From positions 151,273,748-151,337,747 of the forward strand of contig NC_080418.1 of NCBI RefSeq assembly GCF_029873635.1: a stretch of 64,000 nt of DNA, written 5' to 3'. Under the pieces are notes generated by a model. It saw only the letters and a program-made list of their open reading frames with translations. It made no database searches and was not told the DNA's origin. The position numbers were made by a program, and so were the translations under genes. Positions 40,494 through 62,459 of the stretch are shown here, one piece after another (within the stretch, counting starts at the first letter, position 1; each line of letters begins with the position of its first letter). Source of the DNA: Malania oleifera. Taxonomy: Eukaryota > Streptophyta > Magnoliopsida > Santalales > Ximeniaceae.

Positions 40494-42185
40494 TCATGCA
40501 TCCATCTCACATTCCATTTGTACAAAACCAGCCATCTTCAACTGCCAGTTTATCTTGCCCAAAACTTCATATATCCTAGTAGATTTTGGATGTGATCTGT
40601 CACCGGCTATGAATTCATGAACTTTGTTATTCACCTCAATGAAACTCCCACCAGGCGTCTTCTTAATGCCCTTGTCCCGCATTTCCTTCCTTACTACCCC
40701 AACTTCAGTCCACCAACCACGGGCAGCATATATGTTAGATAAAAGCATATAGTTTCCGCCATTATAGGGTTCCACCTTTGCTAGATGCTGCAAAGCATGT
40801 TCGGCAAGCTCAGCATTGCCATAAATTCTCGAAGCAGCGAGAAGGGAACCCCATATAGCTCCATTTGCTTCAAATGGCATTACCCTAACCAATTCCAGTG
40901 CCTTTCGGAGGTAACCGGCACGCCCAAGTAAATCAATCATGCAACCATAGTGCTCAATTGTTGGTTTGATCCCGTACTTTGAACCCATACTGTTGAAATA
41001 TCCAAGACCAATTTCAACCAATCCAACATGGCTACAAGCAGATAGAATAGAAATAAAAGTAACTGCATTTGGCTTAACTCCAGCACTTTCCATGCGAGAG
41101 AACATATCAACAGCTTCTTTTCCAAGCCCATGTAGGGCCAGTCCATCGATCATTGTTGTCCAAGTTATAACGCTTCTATGCTCCATGTTTTCAAAAACTT
41201 CTAGCGCTTTGTTTAACTTCCCTAATTTTGCATACATGTCTATCAGGGCATTGTTAAGCTGAATGCGTCTAGAAAATCCATGCTTGTCTGCGTAGCTGTG
41301 GATCCATTTCCCCAATTCAAGGGCACCCAAATGTGCACAAGCCGAGAGCATAACCAACAATGTGATTCCGTCAGGCTGCACGTCCTCCAGCTGCATTCTC
41401 CGGAACATTGCAATCGCTTCACCTGATCGATCCATCTTAGCATAACCAGCAATCATGGCAGTCCACGAAATTACATTCCTGTCAGGCATATGCTCGAACA
41501 AGTCGCGGGCATTATCAGCATCACCGCCCTTAGCATAACCAGCTACCATCGCATTCCACAAGGTCACGTCTCTCACAGACACTTCGTCAAACAGCTTTCG
41601 GGCATCGGAAACGCACCCGCACGTAGAGTACATCTGAATGAGAGCCGTCGCCACATGAACGTCGAGTTCTAACCCTGTGCCAAGAGCTTGACAGTGTATC
41701 TCTCTTCCGACTTCAACTGCGGATAGACGAACAACAGCCTTCAAGACGAAGGGGAGGGAGTAAGCGTCAGGTCGAAGGCCTGCAACTTGAATGCCACTGT
41801 AGAGAAGGATGGCGTCTTTGGGAGAGTGCGTAGGAGAGCGAGAGAGAGCCCTGATGGCGGTGTTAAAGAGATAGATGTCATTGCCCTGTTGGTGAGTTTT
41901 GTGTGTAAAGACTGAATAGCCATAGTCTGAAAAGCCTAGAGAAGAGCAGGCGTCAATGAATCTGCCCAGGAGGAGGTTGTCCCGATCCAGCCCTCTGCGA
42001 ACCATGAAGCCATGAGTTTGGTACAAGTGTTTGACGTTGGAGCACAGATTCAGCAGAGGAACCACGTCTGGAGCCGTTGATATGCAGCGTTCATATTTTA
42101 ACAGAGAGAAGTGATATGGAGGAACTTGGGGTGGTCTTAGAATGATGGATTGGTGCACTGCTCGCTCGCGCACAGTCACTCGCAT
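40494..42185 (-). CDS. PPR protein, PLS class, E/E+ type, organelle RNA factor
   Basis: Intact intronless gene of 563 codons. PPR proteins of this class bind single-stranded RNA in mitochondria or chloroplasts, usually to direct C-to-U editing or processing. Repeats run from about residue 70 to 440 in PLS order; clear units include VTLWNAMVAGYAKGGDADNA (about 207), VISWTAMIAGYAKMDRSGEA (238), NALIDMYAKLGKLNKALEVF (312) and VITWTTMIDGLALHG (339). The E region starts near 441 (GAIWGSLLAASRIYGNAELA), and E+ near 506 (KTPGGSFIEVNNKVHEFIAG). The protein stops before any DYW deaminase domain, so an editing role would need a partner. The Arg-rich start (MRVTVRERAVHQ) could serve as a targeting peptide. 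It resembles At5g56310-type proteins from memory. Higher GC than its surroundings, as expected for a real exon. Confidence 0.95.
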   Translation of the reverse strand: MRVTVRERAVHQSIILRPPQVPPYHFSLLKYERCISTAPDVVPLLNLCSNVKHLYQTHGFMVRRGLDRDNLLLGRFIDACSSLGFSDYGYSVFTHKTHQQGNDIYLFNTAIRALSRSPTHSPKDAILLYSGIQVAGLRPDAYSLPFVLKAVVRLSAVEVGREIHCQALGTGLELDVHVATALIQMYSTCGCVSDARKLFDEVSVRDVTLWNAMVAGYAKGGDADNARDLFEHMPDRNVISWTAMIAGYAKMDRSGEAIAMFRRMQLEDVQPDGITLLVMLSACAHLGALELGKWIHSYADKHGFSRRIQLNNALIDMYAKLGKLNKALEVFENMEHRSVITWTTMIDGLALHGLGKEAVDMFSRMESAGVKPNAVTFISILSACSHVGLVEIGLGYFNSMGSKYGIKPTIEHYGCMIDLLGRAGYLRKALELVRVMPFEANGAIWGSLLAASRIYGNAELAEHALQHLAKVEPYNGGNYMLLSNIYAARGWWTEVGVVRKEMRDKGIKKTPGGSFIEVNNKVHEFIAGDRSHPKSTRIYEVLGKINWQLKMAGFVQMECEMDA

Positions 42186-43543: not shown

Positions 43544-43623
43544 GTCATGTATTACCCCCACATGACTGGATTGTGTGGCCCGAAGGCGGAACCTGACAAT
43601 GGTTGACCAACCACTGCCAAGTC
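43544..43623 (-). promoter_or_regulatory. Three-hairpin RNA module in LTR A1
   Basis: On the - strand RNA: H1 at 43623-43590 (arms GACUUGGCAGUGGUUG and CAACCAUUGUCAGGUU, with G-U pairs); H2 at 43587-43578 (GCC-UUCG-GGC); H3 at 43566-43544 (stem GUCAUGU/ACAUGAC, loop GGGGGUAAU). The same order and 80-nt total length occur in A2. Confidence 0.65.
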
Positions 43624-43945: not shown

Positions 43946-44175
43946 GCTGGTATTACACATTTTATCATAGCTTGGCCCGTATGCCGGCAAATCATAGCAC
44001 AGCCCATACGTTGGCAAATCACATCATAGCACAGCCCGTACGTCAGCAAACATATCATAGCACAGCTCGTACGCTGGCAAATCACATCATAGCACAGCCC
44101 GTACGCTGGCAAATAACATCATAGCATAGCTCGTACGCCGGCAAACATATATAAAAATCTCGGCCCGTACGCCAG
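43946..44175 (-). repeat. Tandem array with CCGTACGCYGGC core, LTR A1
   Basis: Six to eight units of roughly 20-32 bp, each with GCCCGTACGCTGGCAAATCA-like sequence and CATAGCACA spacers. Unit variants mostly differ at CG positions. Long reading frames here (CYDVICQRMGCAMI-type) follow from the repeat and are not genes. Matches 61132-61345 in reverse. Confidence 0.85.
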
Positions 44176-44722
44176 TTTTCCTATTATAAAAATCCGTATC
44201 ATAATCTCATTCCAGAAAATAATATTTTAAACATTTTATACTCATGCCACACTAAATAGATTTTCCGCATATTTAACATACCATCATTTTAACCATATTT
44301 TCCCAAATATAAATCATATATAAATACAGTCATTTCCCTAAATCAAATTCTATAATAATATACATACATTTTTCATAAAATACTAGCCTAATTTATCCCC
44401 TTACCTGGCCACTGAGAAAGCCCCCAAAATATTCTAGTCTAACACCCGTAGGATTTCCTGACCAATACCCTAAAAATGAAAACTCTCAATATTAAACTTC
44501 AGTATTTTCATGCGTACATCATTTCCTATAACTATCGCACGACCAAATTTGGCTTAAAAAGCCTTACCTCAACTCAGGGATGATTTCCAACTTGCTTTCA
44601 CCAACGATCCGCTCGGGCAGATTTGGAGAGAACTTTCCTTGGAGCATCGTGGTGGTTTCGGATTGTCGATCTAGCGTAAATTTAGCCCGAAATCGACGAA
44701 AGAAAGAGGGAGAACTGAAGGG

Positions 44723-45072: not shown

Positions 45073-46101
45073 GTTCTACTGTCTCCATAAATATACATAC
45101 ACATCCCCAAAAATCCATAAAATATCATAGGGATTCCACAAACATATCCCCCAACTCAAAACACTTACCCTGATACTATAGTACCAAGGTCTCTTCTACC
45201 TTGGAGTTCACTCCACACGGTTGTCCGGGTTTCCTAAAATGTTTAAATTCTTAGGTGAGACATTTCTTAGTAAGATGGGATAGATTATCATCAGTGTATG
45301 GTAACATGAGTTCTAGTATGTTATAAACATATCCTGTAAATAATTAACTGTAACATAATTAACTGTAACTGATAAATCATGTAAATATGTACCCATACTT
45401 ATATAAGTCTGGTAAAATCATATTTTCAACATAAACTTACTCTGGCATAATAAGTTTCTATATACATGTAAATTGCCTGCTATATCTATATAATATTAAA
45501 ATTTTCCCCTTGATGGATTTAGGTAGCTGATATCATGTATTACCCCCACATAATTAGGTTGTGCAGCTCATAGGCGAAACTTAGCAATGATTGGCCTACC
45601 ACGCTAAGCCAAAAATGACTCGTCTGTAAGCACGATTGGTCACCCCAACTTAATCCGAACTACCAGAAAGGATATACTACTCTTCAATTGCTCAATCGTC
45701 TACCATACACCAACACTCTATCTGAGACGTGTGGTGGCACCAATCTAAAATAATAGCTACAGTATCGTGCTCTGAATCTAAACTAATCCATCAGGGTTCT
45801 ACTACCATACAATTCATAATATAATTGTAACATATCTCATTTTCATATTTTTGCGTAAAATCTATTATATCATAATATCTTAATAAAATATTATATCATA
45901 ATTGATCATGCCATAAAGCCAACTGAATTATCGCAGCACTAGGTTGGCAGAACTATCATGGCACTGGATCGGCTGAACAGCTGCAGCACTGGGCCGGCTG
46001 AACTATCACGGCATTGGGTCGGCTGAACTGTCACATTATACTGAACAATATCATACTTTTTGTAATGTTTATAATATTTTCTAAAAATCATTATCAAACC
46101 A
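45073..46101 (-). mobile_element. Diverged gypsy-type LTR fragment D
   Basis: Interior of an LTR related to family A, - strand sense. It holds a GGCCGGCTGAACTATCACGG tandem array (45920-46030), the hairpin module (45608-45532) and the CTTACTAAGAAATGTCTCAC block (45290-45250). Both ends are lost: LTR A1 abuts on the left and a small repeat piece on the right. Confidence 0.6.
45532..45608 (-). promoter_or_regulatory. Three-hairpin RNA module in LTR fragment D
   Basis: H1 arms CUUAGCG and UGCUAAG (45608-45580), H2 GCC-UAUG-AGC (45575-45566), H3 stem AUUAUGU/ACAUGAU with loop GGGGGUAAU (45554-45532). The H1 lower stem differs completely from A1 but still pairs. Confidence 0.5.
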
Positions 46102-46150: not shown

Positions 46151-47044
46151 TCAGTTACTTATATAGTATCAGACCCTGATGGATCATATTCAGTCAGTAG
46201 AGCACGGTACCGTAGCTATATTCAGTTCAAAGTCCAACCACATTACTTAGATAATATGTGGTATTCAGAAGTCGATCATACCTATGTTGTAGATAGGCTC
46301 CCCTTCAGATAAGGGTTGAGGGGGCCTATCTGACTATCGGAGTTCAGTTGACTTATCCTGGTCGGCCAGCCAATGATAGGTCCTGCCTACGGGTCGCACA
46401 ACCCTGTCATGAGGGGTTAAATCATGACTTTCAGTTATCCATCTAGGGAATTTTCTTAGTTATTATATATATGTATGATCAGATTTATAGAAAATAGACA
46501 TACCTATAAATATTAGAAGTGTTATGAATATAATATTTAGAAAAATCAGTTTATGTTAAGCAACATAGGTATGATTTATATTGTAATAGGTATATAGGTT
46601 TTCTCAGATTCCGTTATTTATGGTATTTCTAAATCAGATTTTACAAGCATGTAACTCACTTGCCACACACTAGCAATAACATATTTCATCTTACTGAGCG
46701 TTGTCTCATCCCAGTGATTTAATATTTTTCAGGTGATCCAGTTAGACGAGCAGATCAGGCTTGCAGATAGAGGGGCTACAGTACTGCCCTTTCTGAGGGT
46801 GAGTATTATGGGAAGTTATTTTGTGTGTCCCTAGTTTCAGTAGGGAGTATTTTTGGAGAATAGTTGTGTATGTACAGTTGAGGATTACTCTGACACTATG
46901 GTATTGTAGTATATGTGTGGATATGTTTTTATGTATTCAACTTTTCGCTGCTTAAGTTTATGCTTAGATTTAAATTAGAAGGTATCAGAGCAGTGTGAAT
47001 TTTAGTATATATATTACAAAAAAAAAATTTAGCAGGTCGTTACA
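46151..47044 (+). mobile_element. 5' LTR of gypsy element 2, left part lost
   Basis: Ends AGCAGGTCGTTACA at 47044, followed by GTTTGTATGAGCAGG, which looks like a decayed GTTTGGTATCAGAGCAGG primer site. Carries the hairpin module (46350-46428), the block CTTACTGAGCGTTGTCTCA (46692) and an ATTTTTCAGG acceptor-like site (46724-46733). A gypsy gag-pol relic follows in the same direction. Confidence 0.75.
46350..46428 (+). promoter_or_regulatory. Three-hairpin RNA module in gypsy 2 LTR
   Basis: H1 outer arms GACUUAUC and GAUAGGUC with inner stem CUGG-UCGG-CCAG (46350-46382). H2 is GCC-UACG-GGU (46385-46394). H3 has stem GUCAUGA/UCAUGAC and a GGGGUUAAA loop (46406-46428). Relative to A1 and A2, paired bases change together in H1 and H3, and the H2 loop stays in the UNCG class. 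Confidence 0.65.
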
Positions 47045-48365: not shown

Positions 48366-50769
48366 TGTAAAGACCCAGAAAATTAAAATAATTAAGAAAA
48401 ATAATAAATAAAATTAATTAATTAATTTAAACTATTAATCAATTAGTTAGTTAAACATTATTAAATTGATGTATTAAATAAATAAATAAAAAGAAATAGC
48501 ATGAAAGAAATTAAAAAAAAACTAATTGAAATAAGATATATATATATATATATGTATATATATTATAATAACTTATATATATATATATAAAATATGTATA
48601 AGTTAAAGTTTTAAAATATATATATATATATGTTATAATGATAACTTCTTGAAGCAGCTTCAGGAAGAAGGAAACATTTGTTTTTTTTTACAGAGAGGCA
48701 GCGTCTGCGTCCCCTCCATATCCTCGTCCCCTCTCTCCCACTCTCCTCCATCTCGTCTTCGATATTTGGCCGATCAGAAATCTAAAAATACCATTGGGCT
48801 CTGCTCTCCGCCACCGACAGTTCTACTAGAGTGGATATGTCGTGAAAGCGGTGTAGACATATCTCCCGGGGTAAGGTCAATTCTCAAACTTACCTCAATT
48901 TCTCTTAAATTATAAGGCCAATTAACGAACAGAAATTGCTAGGACATTCATCGGGAGATTCTCTACAATCTAACCGAAGCGGGTTTTCAAAATGGAACTC
49001 TGGGGTACCAATCCTAAATCGGGGGTAAGTTTAATAATTTAGGCTTTATTGGACTATTTAGGCTATTCAGAATTTAGGGGAATTTTAGGGAAAGTTATTC
49101 TAGGGATTGTAATGAGTAACGTAGTGATGTTTGAATTTCAGGGTTTCAGGGATTTTGAACACCGTGGGGCGTAGGTTGGGGTGTTAGCGGGTTTTTTTTC
49201 AGGAACTAGGTAAGGGGGAAAATATATATTAAACCAGAATTTTATGAATTTAATGGAAAATGAATTGTGTTATAAATACGTGTATATATTTTGGTATGGG
49301 TTTAAAATACCAACCACTTAAATTATGTTTTTCCAAGTTTAGGGTTGTTTATTATATACGTATATGCCAAAATGAACTGATGAAAGTGGAAAATATTTTC
49401 AAGATAATTATATAAGAAATGAAAGGTATTTTCAGTATATAAACATTAAATGTTGGTTGGCTTATTTTACAGGCAGTGTATGAATTTTATTACTAAATTG
49501 TGTGGCATGAGTAAATGTAAGTTCTGTGCAAATATATGTTAAATGTATGAGATGCAGGTTAAGTAAGTAATGCATTGAGAATAAAATATGATATGAACTA
49601 TGCTGCTTATGTGTGTTAATACAACAATGTAAACATGTGAAAGATGTTGGGTAAATGTATGATAGCTAAAAATGTTGGGTAAAACAGCTGAAAGATGTTG
49701 GGTAAAACAGCTAAAATATGCTGGGTAAAACAATTGAAAGATGCTGGGTAAATGTATGACAGCTGAAAGATGTTGAGTAAAACAGCTGAAATATGTTGAG
49801 TAAAACAACTGAAAGATGTTGGGTAAATATATGACAACTAAAAAATGCTGGGTAAAACAGCTGAAAGATGCTAGGAAATGAAATGAAAATGGAAATGAAT
49901 GAAATGAAAATGAAATAAGAAATGTGAACAATGTAAAAAGGGAAAGAGCTATATAAAGTGAAATGAAATGAAAAGTAAAAGATGGAAACATAAATAGTTG
50001 AGAAATGCAGGATAATGGCAAATAAAATAATGTATTATGGTATTATCAGTATTTATGTTAGTAGAACATGTTACATTTGGGTGAGATAAACTCTTCGCCC
50101 GAGGACTTGCTAAGAAAGGTGAGTGCCCTGGTTGTATCAGGTGTAGCAGTAGGCTGCATAACGAGCTAAGGCAGAGGGAAACTACTTGTATGGGTAGTTT
50201 CCCTATTCTTGGGAGCCTTCGCCAGTAAACTTTTGTATAAACTGTGTGAGTACAAGATTAATTTATCACTTGAGGGCTTACTAGGTAAGGTGAGTGCTCT
50301 GGTATGCTTCTACTGTGACCTTTGGGTTGCCCAATGTATTAGAGCAAAGGGGTGCTACTTGTATGGGCGAGTAATTACCCCTATCCTTGGGTAATCTCGT
50401 GGGTTAAATCTTTTGCATATGATTAATTAGGTCCAGAAAATGATTTCAGGAATTATGTTAAAATCTAAAAATGTTAAATATTATGTAGATTATAAACTCA
50501 TGTTGGCCACACACTATTTTAATATATTGTTTCTTCCCTTACTGAGATGTGTCTCACCCGAATATGAACTAATCTTTTTCAAGACCCCCATGGGATCGAG
50601 CTTAAAGGGCACGAGGTTGTTATATCATTTTGGAATATAGTAATAGAAAGGGTATAATTTCTGATGATGCTTTTAGGAATGTATAAACTCTATGTTTTAT
50701 GTTTTATGTTTTAAGTCTCCTGAGAAATGGGTGGTTGTGAAACATACAGGTGTTTGTGAATACTGGAAG
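48366..50769 (+). mobile_element. Gypsy-type LTR C2, right end cut off
   Basis: Begins TGTAAAGACCC in the RT gene of gypsy 2 and matches LTR C (55307-57726) in the opposite direction. Contains a GTAAGGGG donor-like site after CTAG (49206), a 24-bp tandem array (49640-49875), and two related blocks with ACTTGTATGGG: GGGAAACTA/TAGTTTCCC pair across the first (50176-50203) and ATTACCC/GGGTAAT beside the second (50374-50395). CTTACTGAGATGTGTCTCACCC is at 50538. Its 3' end is missing because the - strand gypsy element begins at 50770. Confidence 0.75.
49640..49875. repeat. Tandem array, about 24-bp unit
   Basis: About nine copies of AGCTGAAAGATGTTGGGTAAAAC with variants (ATGCTGGGT, ATGTTGAGT), broken by ATGTATGACA inserts. 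Reading frames on the - strand rich in SCFTQH come from this repeat. LTR C lacks a clear counterpart, so the array expanded in this copy. Confidence 0.85.
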
Positions 50770-51269: not shown

Positions 51270-51294
<25 letters not shown>

Positions 51295-51462
51295 ATTGTA
51301 CTTTTATCCTTGAAACTCTGTATGTCATAATTTGACCCCTCATGACAGGGTTGTGCAGCCCGTAGGTATATATATATATATATATACATAATTGTACTTT
51401 TATCCTTGAAACTCTGTATGTCATAATTTGACCCCTCATGACAGGGTTGTGCAGCCCGTAGG
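51270..51462. repeat. Tandem duplication (96-bp period) with AT microsatellite
   Basis: CATAATTGTACTTTTATCC starts at 51291 and again at 51387, and the text through GCAGCCCGTAGG is repeated. Copies are separated by (TA)n; the left copy is preceded by a long (TA)n run (51254-51290). It doubles the H2 and H3 hairpins of the RNA module. Confidence 0.92.
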
Positions 51463-51496
51463 CGGGACTTAACCTAGTCGGCCCTCTAAGAAAGTC
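51420..51496 (-). promoter_or_regulatory. Three-hairpin RNA module in LTR A3
   Basis: H1 outer arms GACUU/AAGUC with a second stem CUUAG/CUAGG (51496-51466), H2 GCC-UACG-GGC (51463-51454), H3 stem GUCAUGA/UUAUGAC with loop GGGGUCAAA (51442-51420). H1 is weaker than in other copies. Confidence 0.5.
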
Positions 51497-55306: not shown

Positions 55307-57726
55307 TGTAACGCCCCAAACCCTTCAACCCGGGTCCGGTGCGTTATACCTAATAAAATCCTTGATATTCCATAATTAAACCATACATACGCAGCGAAAA
55401 ACACAACTATGAACCTCAATCATACAAATAATACTAGAGTTTCCTAGTTCTATCCATAGACCATAATATCCTTCAACACCTGCATTTCCATAATTACATA
55501 TATCTCTTAAACATTTCAATATGTTCACAAACATTCTTTTCTCCACATACTTAAAACATAAGGAAGTGAAACATAAACATTTACATTCCCCAAAACTAAC
55601 ATAGGAATATACCATTTTCTTTATACAATCCTCAAAAGGCTAAAAACCCTCGAGCTCTCAAAGCTCAATCTTGAGGAAATCCTGAAAAAAGATAAATTCA
55701 TATTTGTGTGAGACACATCTCAGTAAGGGAAAAAATAATATATTAAACACAACATGTGGCTAACATGAGGTATATAGATATCATTTTAAATATAATTGCA
55801 AATCATTATCATAACATTAAAACTATTTTCTAAACCTAAACAATCACATGCAAAGATTTACCCACGAGATTACCCAAGGATAGGGGTGATTACCCGCCCA
55901 TACAAGTGGCATCCCTCTGCTCTGATACTTAGGTAACCCTAAGGTCACAATTAAAACATATTAGAGCACTCACCTTACTTAGTAAGCCCTCAAGTGTAAG
56001 ATTAATCTAGTACTCACATAGTTCAACAATAGTTTACCGGCAAAGGCCATAAGGATAGGGAAATCTACCTGCCCATACAAGTAAGTTCCCTCTGCCCTAA
56101 TACGTTATGCGGCTACTACCACATCTGTAGCTACTAGTGCACTCACCTTACTCAGCAAGCCCTCAGGTGAAAGGTACGCCTCGCCCAATCATAACATGTT
56201 CTACGTACATACATATTTCTAATATCATAATACACCATTTTTTCTATCATTATTCAATCATTCACATCCTTTCATGTTCATAACTTAACATTTCACTGTG
56301 TTTCACTTTAAGTGACTCTTTCCCATTTGTATCATTCACGTTTCACATTTCATTTCATTGCATTGTCATTCCATTGTCATTTCATTGCATAACCTTTTCA
56401 TTTCATTCCTTCATACTACAGCTGTTCTTTAGCCATCGTTTGTTAGTCCACATAGAAATGCGCTAGAATCTGCTAACATGACTGTCTTTTAGTTGTCTTA
56501 CGTTTACATGGTTGCATTTAACATACACACGCAACATTGTCCATATCACATTTTATTCATAATGTCTTACTTACTTAGCCTGCATCTCATACATTTAACA
56601 TATATTTGCACAAAATCTCATGTCACACAATTTAGCAGTAAAATTCATACATTGTCTGTAAAATAAGTCAATCAACATTTAACGTTTATATACTGAAAAT
56701 ACCTTTCATTTCTTACATAATTATCCTGAAAATATTTTTCCACTTTCATCAGTTCATTTTCGCATATACATATCTAATAAATAACTCTAAACTCGGAAAA
56801 ATATAATTTAAACAGTTGGCATTTTACCCATACCGAAACATATACACGTATATATAACACAATTTATTTTTCCATTAAATTCATAAAAATTTTGGTTTAA
56901 TATATATTTTTCCCCTTATCTAATTTCTTGAACTACGCCAACAGGGACTCCGAAAAATACCTGCAGCGCTCACCCGGACCCTGAATCAAAAATTCTAGTT
57001 CCATTAAATTAATCCTAAATAAAATACTATTTAAATATTTCCTAGGGCCATAATTCCCAAATAAATAATAATACCCACAAATATAACCATTTTTCCAAAT
57101 TTCTCAAATCCCACTCTCGCTTTGGAGTGGGACCTAGAAAACCCCAATTCAAAATTTACCTATGCCAAAATGACAACAACCGTGTTTAGGCCCAATCGTC
57201 GATTTAACCGCATATTTACAAAAAAATTAGGAATATAGGGAAAAATTACCTTTCCTCAGGAGCAGTGCCAAAGTCGTTTCCACGACAAATCTGCTCCAGT
57301 AGAAATGTCGGTAGTGGAACCAGGAATCCAATGGCACCTTCCGTTTCCTGATCCGCCGCAAACTTATCGAGAAATTGAGAGAAGGAGAGAGACGGAGACG
57401 GAGATGGCTGGCGCAGGAAAAACTCAGAGGGGGGGGGGGTTGGCTTTTGCTTCCGGAAGTTTATCTTTAAACATATATATATTTTAGACTTTAACTATTA
57501 CATATTATATATATATATATATATATCTTTTTTCAATTAATTTTTTTCAATTTTTTTTTATTTCTTTCATACTATTTATTTTTATTTATGTATTTAATAC
57601 ATTAATTTAATAATGTTTAACTAATTAATTGATTAATAATTTTAATTAATTAATTAACTTTATTTATTATTTTATTTATTTATTTTCCTAATTATTTTAA
57701 TCATTTTAATTTTTAGGGTCTTTACA
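55307..57726 (-). mobile_element. Solo LTR C, 2420 bp
   Basis: Ends TGTAACGCCCC and GGGTCTTTACA, with a perfect 5-bp TSD GTGTG (55302-55306 and 57727-57731). Matches LTR C2 (48366-50769) in reverse, including the two CCCATACAAGT blocks near 55897 and 56073. An uninterrupted solo LTR, the youngest layer of this nest. Confidence 0.88.
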
Positions 57727-58266
57727 GTGTGGCCATATGAGTTCAGTTATAACATGCTTTACTTTTCAAAATCACATTTCACCTGAGAAAATATACTGGC
57801 AAATATATTCTCATAGTCATATAGATATACAACACGAGCTTTTACAAGCTTTAAAAATCATTTCTTAAAATCAATCATTCCAACACATTTTTACCTACGA
57901 AGTTCCTGAGAATAGGGAAGATTACTCGCTCTTACAGGTAGCTTCCCTTTGCCCTAACATATTATGCCGCCGGGTATGGCCACATCTGATAACTATCAGA
58001 GCACTCACCTTACTCAGTAAGCCCTTAGGCGGAGAGTTTCACTTCGTCTCAATTATTTATGTCATTAACTCACACAGTTCATTTCTCATATTTAACATTC
58101 TTTATTTTTCAATTTCCATTCTTTCTTTCATTTATCATTTTAGCCAATTTTATCATTCTTTCACTTTCCGTTTTCATTTTACTTTCCAGCTCATGAATAT
58201 CCTTGGTATCAAATACCAACATCGCGTCTGTAACTCATGGCCACCTTGAGGATCTTTCTATCCACG

Positions 58267-58342
58267 CCACGCTTTCCCCCATGGTCAAGGTTGTGTGGTC
58301 CGAAGGTTGGATCTAACCGCGGTTGGCCGACCTAGTTAGATC
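58267..58342 (-). promoter_or_regulatory. Three-hairpin RNA module in LTR B
   Basis: H1 outer arms GAUCUAAC/GUUAGAUC, perfectly paired, around a GGUCGGCCAACC top (58342-58310). H2 keeps the UUCG loop but has a weak stem (58308-58297). H3 has stem CCAUG/CGUGG with loop GGGGAAAG (58284-58267). Lower stems share no sequence with A1 but pair. Confidence 0.55.
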
Positions 58343-59886: not shown

Positions 59887-60274
59887 TTAATTAATATTAA
59901 TAATAATATATTTTATTAAAAAAATAAAAATAAATTTTAATTATTATTTTTCTTTTCTTTTTTATAAATCTGATTAATTAATTAATTATTACTATTATTA
60001 TTATTATTATTTGGAATCACTCCACTAATCTTCTATATCCCTTTTTGGGGTTATTACAAATCCCCTGTGTTCGTCGATAAGATGCTGAAAATTCCTCGGG
60101 TTATTACATTCTCCCCTCCTTATAAAATTTCATCCTCAAAATTTATTATCCGGGTTGAACACCATCTATACTTTCCATCATCCCGTAAAGGAAAAGTGTA
60201 ACGACCTGAATAAAAGTGAGATTTAAATAATAAAAAGGAAGGGAAATGGAAACCAGAAACAGAAGGAGACAGCG

Positions 60275-60517
60275 TTCGTCGACGACATTGCATTTTGGGG
60301 GATAACCATAATTTCAAGGAAATTGCCAAGACTCGTCGACGAATACAGGGCCTCATCGACGAGTGCATAATAAAATTCGTCGACGAACACAAGGCTTCGT
60401 CAATAAGAAAATACCGAGAGAGGTTTTGGGGTAGCTTGAATTTCGTCGACGAATACAGGGTCTCGTCGACGAATTTAATGAAGGACTCGTCGACGAAATC
60501 CCCTGTTCTATAAATAT
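60275..60517 (+). promoter_or_regulatory. TTCGTCGACGAA array and TATA box, LTR A2
   Basis: Eight copies of the palindrome, among them TTCGTCGACGAC (60275), CTCGTCGACGAAT (60333), CTCATCGACGAG, TTCGTCGACGAA (60377), TTCGTCGACGAAT (60440) and CTCGTCGACGAAA (60487). CTATAAATAT follows at 60508-60517, then the CT tract, as expected for an LTR promoter with initiation near 60540. Confidence 0.7.
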
Positions 60518-60575
60518 GAAAATCCGGATTTTGACTTCCTAAAGAAGCTAAGTTTTCCCCCTCTCTCCTCTTCGG

Positions 60576-60615
<40 letters not shown>

Positions 60616-61131
60616 TTGGGCTTATTTGTCGCCGGATCAAAGATTTGAAGCTACCACGACGCTCCTGGCGAAGTTCTCTATGAGTTTGCTAGAGCGGATC
60701 ATTGGGAAAACAAAGTTGGAAATCATCCCTAACTTGAGGTAAGGCTTTTTAAGCCAAATTTGACTTTGTGGTAGTTATAGATAATGTTGAACGTACAGAA
60801 ATACTAAACTTTAATACTGGGACTTTTCATTTTCAGGGTATTGGTCAGGAAATTTGTCAGGAGTTAGATTAGATTGTTTTGGGGGCTTTCTCTGTAGTCA
60901 GGTAAGGGGATAAACTAAACTAGTTCCTTTTGAGAAAATGTATGTATATATATAGTATTTGATTCTGGGAAGTAAATATGTTTATATATATATGAGTTAT
61001 ATTTGGGAAAATACTGTTTAAATACTGTTATGTTGAATACGTGGAAAATATGTTTAGTGTGGCATGAGTATAAAACGTTGGAAATACTGTTTTATGGAAA
61101 TGTGAATGATACGGATTTTTATGATGGAAAA

Positions 61132-61345
61132 TCGGCGTACGGGCTGAGGTTTTTATATGTTTGCCGGCGTACGGGCTATGCTATATGACTGTGATTTGCC
61201 AGTGTATAGGCTGTGCTATGTTTGCTAGCGTACGGGCCGTGCTATGTGACTGTGATTTGCCAGCATACGAGTTGTGCTATGTTTTGCCGACGTATGGGTT
61301 GAGCTATGATAAAATGTGTAATATCGGCGTATGGGCCGATGATTT
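61132..61345 (+). repeat. Tandem array with GCCGGCGTACGGGC core, LTR A2
   Basis: Seven or so units: GCGTACGGGCTGAGG, GCCGGCGTACGGGCTATGC, GCCAGTGTATAGGCTGTGC, GCTAGCGTACGGGCCGTGC and similar, with CTATGTGACTGTGATTT spacers. Reverse-strand equivalent of 43946-44175. Differences between units are mainly at CG sites. Confidence 0.85.
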
Positions 61346-61654
61346 TCATGATACACGTATATATGCAAAATGATATGATTAGTGTGAGAATAAATGATAT
61401 GAAATATCTATGTATCACACTTTTAGTATATGCTATATGATATCATAACCTGGTTGACTTCGTTTAGGCTATCACTTGCACGGTACCGTTGCTATATGTC
61501 CATGGTCCTCATGATCATGATATTTGTGTTAACGCCGTTGTACGGAGTGGTGTGAGATTGGATGGTCGATGTGGTTATTAAAGAAGTGTGCTGTGATCGC
61601 CCCTGGTGTACGGACCAGGTCTAGAAGACTCATCGGACCTACAGACTACAGTTT

Positions 61655-61734
61655 GACTTGGCAGTGGTCGGCCAACCATTGTCAGGTCCCGCCTTCGGGC
61701 CACACAACCTAGTCATGTGGGGGTAATACATGAC
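61655..61734 (+). promoter_or_regulatory. Three-hairpin RNA module in LTR A2
   Basis: H1 61655-61688: arms GACUUGGCAGUGGU and ACCAUUGUCAGGUC form 14 pairs, three of them G-U, around CGGCCA. H2 61691-61700: GCC-UUCG-GGC. H3 61712-61734: stem GUCAUGU/ACAUGAC, loop GGGGGUAAU. The G-U pairs favour the transcribed strand, since the other strand would have A-C mismatches. Confidence 0.7.
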
Positions 61735-62459
61735 AACAGCCAGCTAACCTACCAAGAATGTTTTTATGTTATTATTATTATGATATGAGATGAGATATGC
61801 TTATGAAATGCAGTATGTTCTGCCATGTTTTGATATACATATGTTTTTCCAAATTTGATAAACAGTACTGAATATGTTATATATGATATATATAGAACAC
61901 AGAATACTCATGTTGTCACACACTGGTATTAGTTTATTTCCCTTACTGAGAGGTGTCTCACCCCTAAATCTTATAAACTTTTCAGGAGCCCCAAATAGGA
62001 GAGCGGGAAAAGCCCGCTGAGCTAGTGCTGTGTATCTGCCCTTTTTGAAGGGTAAGTTTTGTAGGGACAGTTAGATTTTTGGGGAAATGTCCCTAGGTCT
62101 TATTTTTGATATGTATATATGGAAATACTGTGGACTATAGCAACTCTGATATATTGTATTATATGGTATTGAGATGTACATTATTGTATGTTTTCTGCTA
62201 CTAGGGCTTCTGCTGTATGTTCTGATATATCGCTGGTACCCACGGGTCCAAGTGGATTGTGACCTGCTGAACTGGAATATGGGAAATGTGCTATTGATAT
62301 TATCAAAAAAAAAATGTGAAAAAAAAAAAGTAGGTCGTGACAAAAAGTGTCTACTCATTTTATTACTTACCCTCACTTATGACGGAGGAATACCATGGTT
62401 ACATTCTATGTTTTGGGAGATTACACAAATAAAATTAAAAACTACTTACTAACTAAATA

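Follow-up and report, generated by a model that had tools for sequence, protein, structure and literature searches.

A three-hairpin module in related LTR families of one plant genome, possibly a signal for RNA dimerisation or packaging

Six gypsy-type LTR copies within a 64,000-nucleotide stretch of plant DNA (the window) had been predicted to carry the same three hairpins in the same order. The question that this locus raises is whether these hairpins are maintained as RNA structure and, if so, which step in the life of the elements they might serve.

The module and its copies

Copy A2 (61655..61734, plus strand) consists of H1, H2, a linker and H3. H1 (61655..61688) forms a 14-bp stem with the 6-nt loop CGGCCA, inside which lies the palindrome GGCC; H2 (61691..61700) is GCC-UUCG-GGC, with a UNCG-type tetraloop; the linker (61701..61711) contains CACAACC, which is identical in five families; and H3 (61712..61734) has a 7-bp stem and a loop starting with GGGG. 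We built a covariance model from 13 copies of the A, G and D families, with the A3 and B copies excluded, and scanned the window with it. The scan recovered all six copies, including the A3 and B copies outside the training set: besides A2, these were A1 (43544..43623, minus strand, 96.2 bits), g2 of family G (46350..46428, plus strand, 101.9 bits), D (45532..45610, minus strand, 84.3 bits), A3 of family C (51420..51496, minus strand, 62.0 bits) and B (58267..58342, minus strand, 46.0 bits). A second, partial A3 copy with H2 and H3 was also found (51323..51391, minus strand, 43.6 bits); it comes from a 96-bp stretch of the A3 LTR that is repeated in tandem without differences (window 51271-51462), so that both hairpins are doubled. 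Matches of the model to the opposite strand in the window reached at most 15.6 bits (E 0.07). Re-reading and the model together confirmed the places, strands and stems of the six copies as originally predicted.

All three hairpins appeared in the single-sequence minimum-energy fold of A1 and A2 only, while the folds of g2, A3, D and B were without one or two of them. H2 had been described as weak in B, which is true of the copy in the window, by decay, but not of family B as a whole, where the first pair is G-C in 20/30 copies and the second is C-G in 22/30. The weakness of H1 noted in A3 is real, and it is a trait of family C rather than a peculiarity of one copy: H1 in this family has 5 bp, an internal loop and then at most 5 bp below the loop GGGCCG, and one upper pair is most often A-C (8/21 copies). 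In copy D, the lower stem of H1 reaches 8 bp when two G-U pairs below CUUAGC are included.

We then searched the genome of the same plant (1,494,336,490 bases in 510 contigs, with the window in contig C2). The core pattern CCTNCGGGCYRCACAACC had 8917 and 8856 exact matches on the two strands, 17,773 in all, and the same pattern read backwards, used as the control, had none on either strand of the whole genome. A sample of 60 places, namely the first 60 of 100 listed CCTNCGGGCYRCACAACC matches, all lying towards one end of contig C1, was compared with the covariance model; all 60 matched at E ≤ 0.01, and 58 of them scored at least 38.5 bits. Because CCTNCGGGCYRCACAACC fixes the 3′ side of H2 and the linker, the free tests in this sample are H1 and H3 only. 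At one sampled place, L138 (19.6 bits), H1 is lost; at another, L160 (31.1 bits), it is of a different type; and H3 is broken in L156, which is among the 58 higher-scoring places. Five further searches used window copies as queries; each drew between 1077 and 5135 candidates, of which the best 40 were scored. Judged by eye, about ten LTR families carry the module. On contig C12 (G000:C12:5307094-5307949), a module-bearing LTR piece is arrayed in tandem, seen as three D-type matches with a spacing of about 368 bp.

At its gathering score Rfam 15 gave no match in the window; relaxing the limit to E 10 yielded two weak bacterial sRNA matches near A2 and none near B, nothing of relevance. Two longer module patterns had no match in IMG/VR, nor had one longer pattern in bacterial and archaeal genomes; two exact matches of the core in IMG/VR were chance-like (14.1 and 13.8 bits) and were rejected. 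We recognised no known ribozyme type in the module, and none of the papers listed by literature searches on the motif and on dimerisation signals of plant LTRs describes it. Taken together, the module was not found in Rfam or in print by the searches made.

Pairing, covariation and strand

If the hairpins matter as structure, families should differ in letters and agree in pairing. Column counts in a structure-guided alignment of 133 rows from five families, window copies counted in, bore out the claim that the lower stems differ yet still pair. The changes are family-specific and preserve pairing: in H1, position a3 is C-G or U-A, a4 is U-G, U-A or C-G, a6 is G-C or A-U, and a7 is G-U, U-A, G-C or A-U; in H3, c1 is G-C or A-U, c2 is U-A or C-G, and c7 is U-A or A-U. 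One of the 60 sampled places, L189, has C-G in place of U-A at a5. In an alignment of 103 rows, which was fitted to the model and includes three antisense H1 matches, L138 and L160, 91.9% of cells were paired, against 30-48% once partners were slid by 1-3 columns; both sides had changed in 18 of 23 pairs, and none of 500 shuffles reached the observed value on any of five measures.

Since copies share descent, we compared the pairing with a tree-aware null, in which substitutions are re-dealt along the tree. The three antisense matches, L138, L160 and the partial window copy were removed, leaving 122 rows, 121 of them distinct. The model alignment was 90.5% paired, against 56.4% under the null (sd 6.3, max 75.8), and it contained 13.7 same-branch compensations (4.2 internal, 9.5 terminal) against 2.1. 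For 11 representatives at 80% identity, 89.7% of cells were paired against 70.0, with 8.2 compensations against 1.3. We also used a MAFFT alignment built without structure, from which L156 was additionally removed (120 rows). Here pairing was 87.4% against 70.0% and same-branch compensations were 8.4 against 2.5, values that none of 200 simulations reached; slid partners were paired in 20-38% of cells against 87.2% unslid. Pair-breaking changes were in excess as well (136.9 against 109.1), as is expected if most copies are dead.

Single pairs gave a different result. In a tree-aware check of all column pairs, none of the 23 structure pairs and no other pair was significant at E < 0.05; the top pair of H3 reaches E 0.035 if only the 23 structure pairs are counted as tests. 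The data hold many copies and few families. We then tested each helix on the MAFFT alignment with 500 simulations, counting those that reached the observed double changes and the observed pairing, respectively. The counts were 0 and 4 for the lower stem of H1, 21 and 7 for H3, 64 and 67 for the upper stem of H1, and 500 and 63 for H2, which has no double compensation and keeps its pairing in five families. The lower stem of H1 and H3 are the only helices that stand alone statistically. The upper stem of H1 and H2 are without independent covariation support, and the case for H2 is solely its UNCG-type loop and its steady pairing. The proposed selection on RNA structure is supported for the whole module and for the lower H1 stem and H3 taken separately, but not for any single pair.

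The unpaired parts behaved otherwise than the stems. The commonest letter is the same in all five families in 4/4 columns of GGCC, 7/7 of CACAACC and 4/4 of GGGG, while the 48 stem columns are split between 25 with the same commonest letter and 23 that differ. A pseudoknot between linker and loop (ACCY with GGGU), judged by eye, would fit A, G, C and D but have only 3 bp in B, and it offers no usable covariation; we set it aside. Among the 60 sampled places, 41 have GGCC in the H1 region. By reading, 13 of the other 19 differ from it by one transition, three by two and one by a transversion, and the remaining two are L138 and L160; of the three copies with two transitions, one is still palindromic, which equals the chance expectation. 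The commonest letters flanking GGCC in the loop are complementary in none of the five families.

A sixth family, F, was found starting from L160, by scoring the best 40 of 1790 candidates and fetching 20 loci, all of which match the covariance model (22.8-42.9 bits). Its own fold, parsed in 20 of 21 copies, has an H1 of 13 pairs capped by the 7-nt loop UUGAUCC; H3 has 6 pairs, and H2 is absent from the consensus fold of the family. The apex of H1 is thus self-complementary in this family too, as GAUC in place of the GGCC of the five others, and TGATC is present in the H1 region of 20/21 copies. The replacement of one palindrome by another fits the prediction of self-contact; a 4-nt palindrome arises by chance in 0.18 of random 6-nt loops and in 0.23 of 7-nt loops. 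The argument from the palindrome comprises two loop types, and the GAUC apex, a single event, would favour a kissing loop as one independent hint. The dimerisation through a kissing loop that was originally suggested has gained this hint and is otherwise inference.

With regard to strand, the prediction that many non-canonical pairs are G-U on the sense strand held between families and not within them. Among the commonest pairs of the families, those other than Watson-Crick comprise seven G-U and one A-C (one-sided p 0.035), in a count that leaves out pairs which a family lacks, as assigned by the analyst. Single-copy departures from a Watson-Crick commonest pair were 71 G-U against 87 A-C, with 29 others and 6 double changes, and are plain decay. 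Counts along branches point mildly in the same direction as the bias between families: inner branches had 27.3 G-U against 18.6 A-C in the model alignment and 23.7 against 17.3 in the MAFFT alignment, while terminal branches had 51.0 against 58.0 and 49.3 against 70.0. Over the cells of 121 rows, the same comparison favoured sense over antisense by 277 to 115. At family level the antisense strand has the weaker support (7 versus 1). Folding energy scarcely separates the strands: over 122 rows the mean z was -0.85 for sense and -0.65 for antisense, z fell below -2 in 16 sense and 2 antisense rows, and the sense fold was the lower one in 59/122. Such thermodynamic scores are uninformative. Overall, a sense-strand RNA element that was under selection while the elements were active is well supported, and we hold this with high confidence. 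The same folded shape, kept between families despite changes of letters, suggests a working part of the element RNA.

Host LTRs and the surroundings of the module

The LTR that contains A2 runs from 60197 to 62342 on the plus strand, with the ends TGTAACGACC ... GGTCGTGACA. Readable TGTAACGACC/GGTCGTNACA ends also delimit the LTR with A1 (45072-42752, minus strand) and the one with g2, which ends at 47044 (plus strand); D, A3 and B lie within nested or broken LTRs. The LTRs of module-bearing elements are about 2.1-2.6 kb long. A TATAAA ahead of a CT run (60509..60514, plus strand) is the likely core promoter of the A2 LTR, and in this window copy of family A the module lies about 1.1 kb downstream of it. 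TATAAR with a CT run occurs upstream of the module in 19/30 A, 8/30 G and 1/30 B copies, against 0-1/30 in controls taken downstream or on the other strand, where the upstream pattern also permitted a TC run and the controls did not. These counts make transcription across the module likely in family A and less clear in G.

A TGGTATCAGAGC-type site, which we take to be the primer site for initiator tRNA-Met, follows the LTR end on the module strand in 7/30 A, 9/30 G and 4/30 B loci, where it stands 2.2-2.6 kb inside the locus; one further G and one B locus have it at another position. No primer site was found when the 41 minus-placed loci were read on the opposite strand. The module is upstream of the primer site by 0.6-1 kb. 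The gag family PF03732 was detected on the module strand at two loci, one of family A and one of family G (two of three pieces; 38.7 and 40.4 bits). These sites and gag establish the module strand as the sense strand of the element; LTR ends, a tRNA-type primer site and gag all lie on one strand, as in an LTR retrotransposon. The only other gag family found was PF19259 (Ty3_capsid), at 26.3 bits and below its cut-off, and a chromodomain (PF00385) scored 21.1 bits against a cut-off of 25.1 in one of four pieces; that pol piece adjoins LTR A2 on the opposite strand, so it may not belong to a module LTR. The hosts are probably Ty3/gypsy-type elements, chromoviruses, in related LTR families of one plant genome.

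We then made all six pairwise comparisons among four LTRs, one from each of families A, G and B and the window's own C. Simple repeats aside, the module is the only island shared in all six, and between A and B it is the only match at all. A second island, TTACTGAG...TTTTCAGG, recurs in five of the six pairs. Together with AGGTAAGGGG upstream, this resembles an intron around the module: a putative intron, AG|GTAAGGGG ... TTTTCAG|G, is predicted at 60902..61985 (plus strand), and splice-like sites of the same kind occur in families A, G and B. An exact AGGTAAG falls in one 50-nt bin upstream in 8/30 A and 17/30 B loci, while no bin reaches a quarter of the loci in G; an acceptor-like motif lies downstream of the module in 19/30 A, 13/30 G and 12/30 B loci. 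E-type LTRs in the window (48385-50746 and 55520-57686) retain the second island, as TTACTGAG...TTTTTTCAGG, and gave no covariance-model match even at E up to 10, indicating that island and module are separable. Further upstream of the module, every family folds somehow, and no hairpin there is homologous by eye.

Other features of these LTRs were noted in passing. The island TTACTGAG-GTGTCTCACC ... TTTTCAGG (window 61906-61990 and homologous places), present in LTRs with and without the module, contains the small inverted repeat TGAGA/TCTCA. GC-rich repeat runs of GCCGGCGTACGGGCTGTGCTATG type lie upstream of the module in A LTRs (window 43950-44190 and 61120-61340). E- and B-type LTRs have in common a second block of GGGCTTACTGAGTAAGGTGAGTGCTCT ... 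CTTCCCTA type (window 55900-56200 and 57900-58070), which contains inverted repeats, occurs twice in E and may be another structured element. A 563-aa open frame with internal repeats lies at 40494-42185 of the window on the minus strand.

Possible functions and known systems

The structure of the module, its strand, its position upstream of the primer site and its abundance are observed, as is the presence of a TATA/CT site upstream of the module in many copies of A and some of G. We infer transcription, dimerisation, Gag binding and an intron location. Our tentative reading, to which we give a probability of about two in five, is a cis-acting leader RNA of LTR retrotransposons that most likely acts as a dimerisation/packaging signal; conserved hairpins on the sense strand upstream of the primer site, as such a signal should have, were found, in a region whose transcription is presumed. 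The module would single out genomic RNA for Gag and for pairing into dimers: contact between two RNAs would be made through the self-complementary apex of H1, and the nucleocapsid of Gag would bind the exposed G-rich loops. Stems are maintained by compensating changes, and the unpaired GGCC, CACAACC and GGGG as letters. If the flanking splice-like sites are used, the module would be present only in unspliced genomic RNA, and retroviral packaging signals below the splice donor are likewise confined to such RNA. The distance to the primer site speaks against a dimer site, being far for a retroviral one. In a broader version, H1 would be a kissing-loop dimerisation site and the three hairpins together would form the packaging signal for a whole group of plant Ty3/gypsy elements; their location in an LTR intron would restrict dimerisation and packaging to unspliced genomic RNA, and the palindrome would coevolve with itself from GGCC to GAUC. 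This version appears doubtful to us.

Among the alternatives, which we place below dimerisation/packaging in the order given here, the splice-like sites that flank the module in loci of A, G and B would also suit an element for nuclear export or retention (CTE-, RTE- or MTE-like) that lets unspliced, intron-containing RNA exit the nucleus, and the invariant CACAACC resembles a contact site for a protein or a tertiary interaction. Mouse IAP and musD have such elements, with a pseudoknot and kissing loops reported for the musD MTE (PMC12786077). Elements for export typically work close to the 3′ end, and the module is present in both LTRs; the intron is putative, and E-type LTRs have the island without the module. 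We regard this role as unlikely. The position between donor- and acceptor-like sites, together with a UNCG-type hairpin, could instead indicate an RNA element for splicing, 3′-end formation or leader translation, for example one that joins intron ends or exposes a poly(A) site; the acceptor-like island occurs without the module in E-type LTRs, and this reading ranks after export.

The hairpins are inverted repeats in DNA also, CAUG and GGCC are palindromic, and folding energies are nearly equal on both strands, all of which would be true of a DNA-level element with transcription factor sites or a cruciform. Such an element is improbable, since exceptions between families favour G-U on the sense strand by 7 to 1, the fixed motifs CACAACC and GGGG lack symmetry, stem letters change while pairing stays, and the A module in the window lies so far downstream of its TATA/CT site. 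The least probable reading is that chance inverted repeats of an ancestral LTR were spread by copying, with compensations due to chance or alignment; shared descent, the per-pair result (0/23) and the bias of model-fitted alignments towards the model favour it, but the aggregate excess holds on the sequence-only alignment against the tree-aware null, and the module can be aligned between families whose LTRs otherwise scarcely align.

The nearest parallel to a dimerisation/packaging signal is the DIS-psi leader of HIV-1 and MLV, a cluster of short hairpins with a self-complementary apex in a small loop and exposed G-rich loops. The module shares with it the cluster in a leader, the palindromic apex, the G-rich loops and possibly a position downstream of a splice donor; it differs in lying inside a 2.1-2.6-kb LTR, upstream of the primer site, and in having a palindrome of 4 nt and no Rfam match. 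To our knowledge, hardly anything is known of how plant LTR retrotransposons select and pair their RNA, and the main text of a 2025 review contains no word starting with "dimer". At 80 nt, with thousands of copies whose stems are specific to each family and whose loops are fixed, the element lends itself directly to structure probing, dimer assays and the exchange of loops.

Among LTR retrotransposons, kissing loops SL1a-SL3a of the Ty1 TIPIRT are proposed to start dimerisation and packaging, and the likeness lies in this proposed loop-loop contact in the RNA of an LTR retrotransposon; TIPIRT, likened here by its description, is at the 5′ end of the RNA, uses two different loops and includes a pseudoknot (PMC5454406). 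Barley BARE is, like the hosts of the module, a plant LTR retrotransposon, whose RNA is sorted into separate packaged and translated pools and partly spliced, but its splice junction is near the end of gag, and the portion of the report available describes no such hairpin module (PMC3735527). The musD MTE and IAP RTE are structured cis RNAs of LTR elements as well, from mouse and with a role in export, and are again likened by description (PMC12786077). Benachenhou et al. describe conserved modules in otherwise variable LTRs, as here, and stem-loops in long R regions; length variation blocked models for the LTRs of plant Metaviridae, the group to which the hosts of the module probably belong (PMC3601003). 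The module could provide a fixed point for identifying related LTRs, whose lengths were beyond those earlier models (PMC3601003).
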